Below are positions 2,856-38,533 of a stretch of DNA of 64,000 nucleotides, piece after piece. Position numbers and translations under genes: made by a program. The notes under the pieces are model-generated. The model saw only the letters and a program-made list of their open reading frames with translations. It searched no databases and was not told the DNA's origin. This DNA is from Nocardioidaceae bacterium (GTDB lineage: Bacteria; Actinomycetota; Actinomycetes; Propionibacteriales; Nocardioidaceae): positions 1 to 64,000 of the forward strand of contig JAQSWV010000010.1 of the NCBI GenBank assembly GCA_029266455.1, read 5' to 3'. The stretch's first letter is position 1, and every line of letters starts with the position of its first letter.

Positions 2856-3049
2856 TCAGATGCCCAGGGATCACACGACAGCATGCGGCCAGGGCTCGCA
2901 CTCCCTGTTTGCAGCACCCTCCAGTTGGCCCCATAGCATCGCGGTCCCGGGGTGTCGCGTGCGTTCCGGAAAGCCGGGGCGCCCAGACTGCGACGATGCA
3001 ACCTGTTGCCACGTGCCGCAGCCCCCGTTCCGTGACAGGGGGTCAGATC

Positions 3050-4039
3050 GTGTTCTCGTCCGCCGGGTCCTTCCGTGCCCGCACCCTGGTCTCTTGGGTG
3101 GTGGCGATCGCCGTCTGCGGCGCCTGCGCCACACCTGCACAACTCGCGGATCGCGGTCAGGGGGGAGGGTCGGCCGCCCACCACCCCGGCGACGATCCGC
3201 GAGTTGTGCAGGCGGCGGGGGCGAGGTCACGGACGGCGCCGTACCGCGGTCTGGGAACGTGGGTGGACGTCTACGACTCCCGCCAGCTGGCCCGCCCGGT
3301 GGCCGCCGTGCGCACGATGGACCGCAAGGGCGTGCGGACCCTCTTCGTCGAGACGGCGAACTACGCCTCGCCGCGGGCCGTGATGCACAAGCGGGCGATG
3401 GGCAGGTTCATCCATGCCGCCCACAAGCGCGGCCTGCGGGTGGTCGCCTGGTATCTGCCGTCGTTCTCGGATCTGCGCCTCGACCGGCGGCGGTCCCTGG
3501 CGGCCATCGACTTCCGGACCAGGCGAGGGCAGCGCTTCGACGGCTTCGGGCTCGACATCGAGGCCACGACGGTCAGGTCCGTGCAGGTGCGGCTCCGGCG
3601 CCTGCTCAAACTGTCCCACCAGATCAGGCGCGCAGCGGGCGATCGCTACTCGCTGGGTGCGATCACGCCCTCGCCGTACGGGATGCGGGCCATGCCCCGG
3701 TACTGGGGCAACGTGCGCAGGTTCCCCTTCCACAAGCTGGACCGCATCTACGACGTGCTGGCCCCGATGAGCTACTTCACCTACCGGGTGAACGGCGTGC
3801 GCGACGTTCGCGAGTACGTCCACTACAACATCGGTGCGGTACGCCGCCTCAGCCGGAACCCGCGGGTGCTCGTACACCCCATCGGCGGGATCGCGGACGA
3901 GACAAGCCGTCGCGAGGTGCGTGCCTACGTCAAGGTCGTGCGGCGGCGCGATGCCGTAGGAGGCAGCCTGTACGACTTCCCGCTGACCACCCGCAAGCAC
4001 TGGCCCGCACTCCGGAGGATCCCGGCCGGACCGCGGTGA
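3050..4039 (+). CDS. Secreted glycoside-hydrolase-like protein (TIM-barrel type)
   Basis: The GTG at 3050 follows the run AGGGGG with an 8-nt gap, giving 329 residues; an upstream ATG at 2996 is possible. Residues 8-35 form a signal peptide (ARTLVSWVVAIAVCGACA). The body shows YRGLGTWVDVYDSR, GFGLDIEATT and YDVLAPMSYFTYR, typical of secreted TIM-barrel glycoside-hydrolase-like proteins in which a Glu/Asp ends a core strand. The linker between signal peptide and domain is encoded by the inverted-repeat element at 3134-3212. Substrate unknown; cell-surface polysaccharide is likely. Confidence 0.7.
   Translation: MFSSAGSFRARTLVSWVVAIAVCGACATPAQLADRGQGGGSAAHHPGDDPRVVQAAGARSRTAPYRGLGTWVDVYDSRQLARPVAAVRTMDRKGVRTLFVETANYASPRAVMHKRAMGRFIHAAHKRGLRVVAWYLPSFSDLRLDRRRSLAAIDFRTRRGQRFDGFGLDIEATTVRSVQVRLRRLLKLSHQIRRAAGDRYSLGAITPSPYGMRAMPRYWGNVRRFPFHKLDRIYDVLAPMSYFTYRVNGVRDVREYVHYNIGAVRRLSRNPRVLVHPIGGIADETSRREVRAYVKVVRRRDAVGGSLYDFPLTTRKHWPALRRIPAGPR
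3134..3212. repeat. Perfect 20-bp inverted repeat inside the 3050 gene (REPIN-like)
   Basis: The left arm 3134-3153 (CCTGCACAACTCGCGGATCG) and the right arm 3193-3212 are perfect reverse complements, separated by a 39-nt G/C-rich spacer. The core ATCCGCGAGTTGTGCA recurs at 34118-34133 and resembles the 22-bp unit of the 32.1 kb array. The element is read through in frame. Confidence 0.85.
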
Positions 4040-24610: not shown

Positions 24611-24663
24611 GGAGTTTCGCAGGGTGGGCTGCGAAAGCGGCACTCCTATGGCGCTGCAGCGCC
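24611..24663. repeat. Hairpin (TTTCGCAG/CTGCGAAA) plus 14-bp palindrome
   Basis: A perfect 8-bp stem at 24615-24622 and 24629-24636 has outer GGAG/CTCC pairing. It is followed by the perfect palindrome GGCGCTGCAGCGCC at 24650-24663. Together they occupy the place where the ArsR N-terminus should be. Confidence 0.7.
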
Positions 24664-24686
24664 CTGGAGGTGACGTTTTCGCCTGG

Positions 24687-28120: not shown

Positions 28121-28205
28121 CGATCATCCGCGCAGTACGACGGCCCGCGGACGCGTCCTGCACCCCCATCCGGACCCTCATCCGGTCATCCGCGCACTAC
28201 GACGG
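28121..28205. repeat. Two 23-bp direct repeats between the DUF1906 and DUF1905 genes
   Basis: Copies at 28121-28143 and 28183-28205 differ at two positions; the shared core is TCATCCGCGCA(G/C)TACGACGG. They lie just downstream of the stop (28208) of the minus-strand DUF1905 gene. The 5' end shares ATCCGCG with the 22-bp repeat family, but a common origin is uncertain. Confidence 0.65.
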
Positions 28206-32088: not shown

Positions 32089-32098
32089 CGCCATGTGC

Positions 32099-32264
32099 GC
32101 GGTCCGCGGCTTGTGGTTGCGCGATCCGCGGGTTGTGGATGCGCGGTCAGCGGGTTGTGGTTGCGCGGTCCGCGGGTTGTGGTTGCGCGGTCCGCGGGTT
32201 GTGGTTGCGCGGTCAGCGGCTTGTGGTTGCGCGGTCCGCGGGTTGCGGTTGCGCGGTCCGCGTA
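32099..32264. repeat. Tandem array of seven 22-bp units plus a partial
   Basis: Seven complete units run from 32099 to 32252 with a partial to about 32264. Each reads GCGGTC(C/A)GCGG(G/C)TTGT, then GGTTGC, with few variants; one unit has GCGATC. There are no spacers. It follows an amidohydrolase stop and precedes a convergent stop at 32358. The rest of the 269-bp gap holds nothing recognisable. Confidence 0.93.
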
Positions 32265-33988: not shown

Positions 33989-34116
33989 TGCCGTCCTCTC
34001 GAGGGTCCCGGTGATGTGGGTGAGGTACCCGTTCGACCGCCCCGCTACCCCTCAGTGACTGCGCGTGCGATGCCAGTTGCCACTGCGTCCGCGTCCGCGT
34101 CGCCCCACACGTCCAC

Positions 34117-34290
34117 CATCCGCGAGTTGTGCAGCCGCAACCGTGAGCCGCTGATGGTGCAACCGTGAGTCGCTGATGGTGCAACCGTGAGCCGCTGATG
34201 GTGCAACCGTGAGCCGCTGATGGCGCAACCGTGAGCCGCTGATGGTGCAACCGTGAGCCGCTGATCGCGCAACCGTGAGCCGCTGATCGC
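34117..34290. repeat. Tandem array of seven 22-bp units, opposite orientation, with flanking REP half
   Basis: Seven units run from 34137 to 34290, each beginning GCAACCGTGAGCCGCTGAT and ending GGT, GGC or CGC. Read on the minus strand (GATCAGCGGCTCACGGTTGC) the last units match the 32.1 kb unit at 18 of 22 positions by hand alignment. Immediately 5' is ATCCGCGAGTTGTGCA (34118-34133), identical to the core of the 3.1 kb inverted repeat. It fills the 324-bp gap between the PRC-barrel gene and the antiporter stop. Confidence 0.92.
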
Positions 34291-38120: not shown

Positions 38121-38348
38121 GCTGCTCCCTTACTGGCAGTGATCGGCCGCGTACGGTTATATCACGGTATGTGAACGCCTGCTTCCGGGCGCCGGTGTGG
38201 TCGTGGGCTCGAGACGAGGGGGGCCGGCCGCTGGACGGTCACGCGACACCGCTCGGGACCGCGGCGACATCGCCGGACGCAGCGAGGCACACGATCACCC
38301 GAGGGCACCCGAAGGAGCGGGCGATCGTGTGCCCCTGCCTGCCGATCG

Positions 38349-38533
38349 TGCGGTCGGCTCCGACCGCTGCCGTGTGCGGTCAGCCTGACCCGCTGCCGCG
38401 TGCGGTCAGCTCTGCACGCGCTGCCGCGTGCGGTCAGCTCTGCACGCGCTGCCGCGTGCGGTCAGCTCTGCACGCGCTGCCGCGTGCGGTCAGCTCTGCA
38501 CGCTGCCGTGTGCGGTCAGCTCCGACCGCGGCC
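38349..38533. repeat. Tandem array of 26/28-bp units, about seven copies
   Basis: Units start at 38349, 38375, 38401, 38429, 38457, 38485 and 38511 (the last partial), each beginning TGCGGTC(A/G)GC. The three 28-bp units are identical and can fold GCGTGC against GCACGC. The array ends inside the C-terminal codons of the DUF4383 gene. The rest of the 38121-38515 gap shows only the candidate promoter of the upstream GGDEF gene. Confidence 0.9.

Follow-up and report, generated by a model that had tools for sequence, protein, structure and literature searches.

Within the 64,000-nt stretch of Nocardioidaceae DNA analysed here (the window), one open reading frame contains a perfect inverted pair of a short sequence, which raises the question of where this sequence came from and whether it is read as part of the protein. 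The pair had been described in a first-pass annotation as 20-bp arms flanking 39 nt within the coding sequence, and both arms and spacer were recovered exactly as described (Table 1). Among the inverted repeats of the window with arms up to 200 nt apart this is the longest, and chance would produce only ~0.0004 perfect 20-bp pairs spaced by up to 200 nt in 64 kb, as computed from the window composition (72% GC). The arms can be extended to 36 nt each (83% complementary, gap of 7 nt), and the folded RNA of the pair region reaches -63 kcal/mol, compared with a mean of -33 for shuffled sequences (z = -9.0). Each arm is one copy of a repeat, named here repeat A, which consists of CCTGCACAASTCGCGGATCGTCG followed by a G-rich tail. 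Since both arms carry the typical tail, the pair is made of two complete units arranged tail-to-tail.

Table 1. Coordinates of the features of the window considered in this work.
Feature	Position	Strand	Basis or remark
CDS of putative secreted protein, 329 aa	3050..4039	+	Open frame; choice of the GTG start guided by its ribosome-binding site
Signal-peptide-like N-terminus, MFSSAGSFRARTLVSWVVAIAVCGACAT	3050..3133	+	Read by eye; positive coding score
Left copy of repeat A, core CCTGCACAACTCGCGGATCG	3134..3153	+	Sequence match to family
G-rich tail of left copy, CGGTCAGGGGGGAGGG	3154..3169	+	Matches tail downstream of 118 aligned copies
G-rich tail of right copy, TCGCCGGGGTGGTGGG on - strand	3177..3192	-	Same tail match; extended arm of inverted repeat I1
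Right copy of repeat A	3193..3212	-	Exact reverse complement of left core
Conserved domain, invariant D103, D108, E110, R132	3233..4036	+	Homologue alignment A2 (its numbering)
Sister family B copies, CGTACTGCGCGGATGATC	28122..28139 and 28184-28201	-	Repeat search
Divergent copy of repeat A, 2 mismatches	32122..32139	-	Inside 22-nt tandem array 32096-32262
Intergenic copy of repeat A, 1 mismatch	34116..34133	-	Head of 22-nt tandem array 34137-34287

The repeat A unit comprises a core of ~23 nt and a tail of ~12 nt, and the consensus derived from 118 aligned copies reads CCTGCACAA[C/G]TCGCGGATCG[T][C][G], followed by ~12 strongly G-rich positions. A search of the own genome (3.43 Mb in 128 contigs) identified 131 copies with up to two mismatches, with zero matches to the reversed control sequence, and both arms in the window match this family exactly. 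Among 58 relatives searched with one mismatch, four showed a single chance-like match each, the genome of the same genus showed none, and at three mismatches the relatives were near the control level. When other genomes totalling 257 Gb, a set from which records of this same genome may be missing, were scanned for exact matches, six unrelated single ones were returned, where a back-of-envelope estimate gives ~4 by chance. As relatives and scan are both at chance level, repeat A is, within the reach of these searches, private to this lineage. Samples of 141-200 kb from the relatives G001, G018, and G013 contained no similar arrays or one unrelated array, Rfam gave zero matches in four array-rich loci, and a literature search for the repeat word or its actinobacterial equivalents found nothing usable. 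A phage origin was also considered, and the two matches on viral contigs turned out to be one copy each, on opposite strands of contigs that resemble a single phage; as neither a further copy nor a member of the family B described below was present, they were judged a coincidence.

Many copies lie at the ends of contigs (C8, C9, C15, C18, C31, C35, C56, C61, and C92), so there are probably more copies than were counted, and the repeat itself probably caused some of the assembly breaks. A sister family, B (CGTASTGCGCGGATGATC), with ~90 copies at up to two mismatches genome-wide and likewise private, shares with repeat A the CGCGGAT core, the G-rich tail, and the inverted array layout. An array at L136:1-170 (AGCACAACxCGCGGATGACGGGG) is intermediate in sequence between both, and this, together with the common core, suggests a single superfamily in which the core stays constant and the heads change.

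Whether the pair in the window is translated depends on the start of the host gene. The most probable start codon is GTG 3050, with an AGGGGG ribosome-binding site at 3037-3042, 7-8 nt upstream. From there, the N-terminus inspected by eye shows a basic n-region, a hydrophobic stretch, and an AxA-like end. The pair would then be translated as PAQLADRGQGGGSAAHHPGDDPRVVQ, beginning right behind the signal-peptide-like segment (...CGACA/T) and with the conserved domain starting ~25 nt further on; the peptide GQGGGSAAHHPGDDPR is part of this product as predicted from the sequence. The coding score is +6.0 for the segment encoding the N-terminus (GC3 0.89), -8.2 for the region upstream (2996-3049), -12.5 for the element, and positive again in the conserved domain, and GC contents by codon position are 0.96/0.58/0.65 in the element versus 0.67/0.51/0.92 in the domain. 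The 50 nt just past the element are also slightly non-coding (-5.6), so the boundaries of the element are not sharp.

These data bear on the alternative that the pair belongs to the 5' untranslated region, with translation starting at GTG 3206, a codon within the right arm, or beyond, and practically nothing read as a linker. Our hexamer-based caller did place the pair just upstream of its gene, with the start at 3263, and the other well-placed copies of the family are all intergenic. However, a start at 3263 would delete G8 and W10, the first residues that are invariant in the family alignment, and GTG 3206 has no ribosome-binding site in front, whereas the segment 3050-3133 is coding-like, resembles a signal peptide, and is preceded by AGGGGG. 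Moreover, the homologues with short N-termini also begin with a signal-peptide-like segment and appear to be secreted. We consider it unlikely that the pair is part of an untranslated leader; the protein is presumably made and exported with the linker.

Homologues of the protein were detected in 22 other genomes among 395 of the class, with a patchy distribution, and three additional ones came from a first set of relatives. The gene was missing in all 24 genomes of the same family among the first 40 searched, including the one of the same genus. The 19 aligned homologues belong to other genera and share 26-44% identity with the protein, and the invariant D/E residues (Table 1) form part of a "GxDIE"-type motif of the protein family. 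Zero family matches were found in Pfam and NCBIfam, and a profile search against solved structures detected no relative. It had been claimed that the pair lies exactly between a signal peptide and an enzyme domain: the position is backed by the coding scores and by the homologues, while the identity of the domain as an enzyme, judged from its motifs, is plausible but unproven, and its reading as a glycosidase-like TIM barrel is only an impression from the motif pattern.

The homologues also agree with the claim that this position tolerates insertions. In the closest ones, the signal peptide runs almost straight into the domain. Some homologues have zero linker (L082 and L084), others (L089 and L104) carry an unrelated Pro/Lys-rich linker of 30-40 aa, and there are also homologues with additional N-terminal sequence. 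A stretch so free in length and sequence could accommodate a repeat. The AlphaFold model of the protein alone is too poor (mean pLDDT of 33) to confirm disorder of the linker.

The first-pass annotation had also reasoned that finding the same sequence in homologues from unrelated genera would mark it as ancestral coding sequence. Repeat A, looked for with up to three mismatches, was absent from every homologue locus examined, a comparison made with genes of other genera, as none of the genomes searched offered an allele of the gene itself without the element. The idea that the element is coding sequence inherited from the ancestor of the protein family, its likeness to the repeat being fortuitous, is in keeping with the frame that stays open across it, but it is contradicted by the homologues without the element, by arms identical to a 131-copy family, and by the non-coding codon-position composition, and we give it practically no credence. 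We infer instead that the element is an insertion and not a product of growth in place, and that it entered after the gene had reached this lineage. Inspection by eye of 3134-3212 revealed no target-site duplication, and as 79 nt is not a multiple of three, a simple clean insertion would require a compensating change.

The distribution of the family around genes was analysed on stretches fetched around listed copies, so the densities are not genome-wide, and with genes called by our own hexamer-based caller instead of a published one, so the counts are approximate. A separate 400 kb of the genome contained no copies at up to two mismatches. In the fetched stretches, repeat A forms arrays of one to five copies with spacings most commonly of 41-44 or 52-53 nt. 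With intragenic three-mismatch matches put aside as chance, the examined copies at up to two mismatches are intergenic save for those of the window pair, the only repeat A pair found within a gene, and of locus L060, where the called gene start is doubtful and a later ATG begins past the array. Arrays of A or B were found in 16 of the 69 convergent, 19 of the 266 co-directional, and 5 of the 104 divergent gaps (p = 0.0005 for convergent versus divergent). Within 100 nt of a gene 3' end, copies are mostly antiparallel to the gene (57/75), so A copies read CGATCCGCGASTTGTGCAGG in the gene sense, and the sense strand of copy-bearing 3' ends is C-richer than that of ends without copies (mean skew 0.17 versus 0.02, p = 5e-5). 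Neighbouring copies in opposite orientation (n = 19) are head-to-head in 17 cases, and the window pair, being tail-to-tail, is one of the two with the other polarity; a perfect 20-bp hairpin is also found at L038.

Regarding the spread of the repeat, identical repeat-plus-spacer units at L047 make local tandem duplication visible. Movement from one locus to another calls for a further mechanism, and no RAYT was detected. In the orthologous divergent region of contig C1, the genome of the same genus lacks the array present here, which fits either a gain in this lineage or a loss in the other. We also considered whether the arrays could be the ends of a gene-carrying mobile unit, and discarded it because the enclosed genes look by inspection like ordinary host genes.

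The bias to 3' ends is also relevant to the alternative that the pair is a selected cis-acting element, in which the hairpin or a repeat-bound protein would control transcription or translation and coding would be secondary. The stability of the hairpin (-63 kcal/mol), its location 84 nt past the probable start codon, and the perfect identity of both arms speak for such a role. However, perfect arms are just what a recent origin would produce, the copies of the family are chiefly downstream of genes and not in leaders, and the lack of a U-tract after the hairpin means that it does not resemble an intrinsic terminator. A regulatory function at this locus appears improbable to us. As to the role of the family in general, it most likely builds up passively at the 3' ends of genes, this being the weaker part of our interpretation, and C-rich, hairpin-forming transcript ends could possibly aid termination, Rho-type included, as a side activity.

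The pair had been likened to REPINs, doublets of REP sequences mobilised by a RAYT transposase, and this likeness was not supported by the analysis. REPs are intergenic and biased to 3' ends and convergent genes, and their unit is an imperfect palindrome with a stem of 5-13 bp (PMC3116915, PMC3733652). Repeat A shares with REPs, BIMEs, and REPINs its dispersion in around a hundred or more mainly extragenic copies, the preference for 3' ends and convergent genes, the hairpin-capable inverted pairs, and the occasional intragenic copy (PMC3116915, PMC3733652). In contrast, its unit folds no better than shuffled sequences (z = +0.72) and has no palindromic stem, so that it lacks a defining trait of REPs and REPINs (PMC3116915, PMC3733652). 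As to the tag at one end of a REP unit (GTAG or CGTC), repeat A has no GTAG, and its consensus contains CGTC after GGAT with no stem attached. Y1_Tnp (PF01797) and RAYT (NF047646) profiles gave no match in the own genome, 97% complete, in a search where control profiles did give matches. In addition, direct arrays with ~42-nt spacing, with variant words homogenised within arrays, prevail over inverted doublets, the arrangement that predominates in REPINs, and the polarity of the window pair is the minority one (17 versus 2). A genuine REPIN is, in our opinion, very unlikely.

A closer parallel is provided by the Rickettsia palindromic elements (RPE) and MITE-like families, in which short dispersed hairpin-forming repeats, most of them intergenic, are found in frame at tolerant positions (PMC2229807). 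By analogy, the window element may work like an RPE-type in-frame insertion (PMC2229807): the repeat is common to many loci, occupies an ORF without breaking its frame, and is not seen in the homologues, these being from other genera, as the same-genus genome lacks the gene. RPE-type elements are, however, single units of ~100-200 bp (PMC2229807). The unit described here has ~23-36 nt, is non-palindromic, forms one intragenic pair, and resides in a high-GC actinobacterial host. Species-specific intergenic repeat arrays are also known in mycobacteria as VNTRs and MIRU. Repeat A resembles them in its tandem-like intergenic arrays, its high-GC actinobacterial host, and the local duplication of repeat plus spacer, but differs in that its copies around intergenic regions point in either direction and combine a constant core with spacers that vary.

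Taken as a whole, the reading of the pair as an inserted repeat translated as a linker is well supported. A short private repeat would have multiplied in the intergenic space of one lineage, and a pair of copies, or a single copy later duplicated in inverted orientation, would have come to lie between the signal peptide and what looks like a catalytic domain, where it would be read in frame as a tolerated linker of ~26 residues. We regard this as the best explanation for the locus, and as a probable one. More tentatively, and with considerably less confidence, the family could represent an undescribed class of actinobacterial intergenic repeats, in which a non-palindromic word of ~23 nt, with a fixed CGCGGAT core, a head that differs from array to array, and a G-rich tail, is repeated in arrays, with several variant families (A, ~130 copies; B, ~90) private to one species and oriented to gene 3' ends, that would generate C-rich or hairpin transcript ends, spread without a recognisable transposase, and occasionally provide new protein linkers.

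The capture of a dispersed repeat in frame is one way in which non-coding DNA turns into protein sequence, and at this locus the source family, the host gene, and the tolerant position are all visible together, in a high-GC actinobacterium that apparently lacks the transposase held responsible for REPs. Of broader importance is the family itself, whose short word is abundant in one lineage only and concentrated at gene 3' ends.

Other repeats were observed in the window. A third private family, C, present at 24615-24682, is formed by TTTCGCWGGGTGGGCTGCGAAA and a GCGCTGCAGCGC palindrome and is truly palindromic, unlike A, with 41 copies here and none in 39 relatives. The two 22-nt tandem arrays listed in Table 1 (~7-8 copies), one of them beginning beside an A copy, are both A-like and may be decayed relatives of repeat A, judging from their sequence. 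Finally, a 28-nt tandem array of 6.5 copies at 38347-38522 is flanked by two minus-strand genes.
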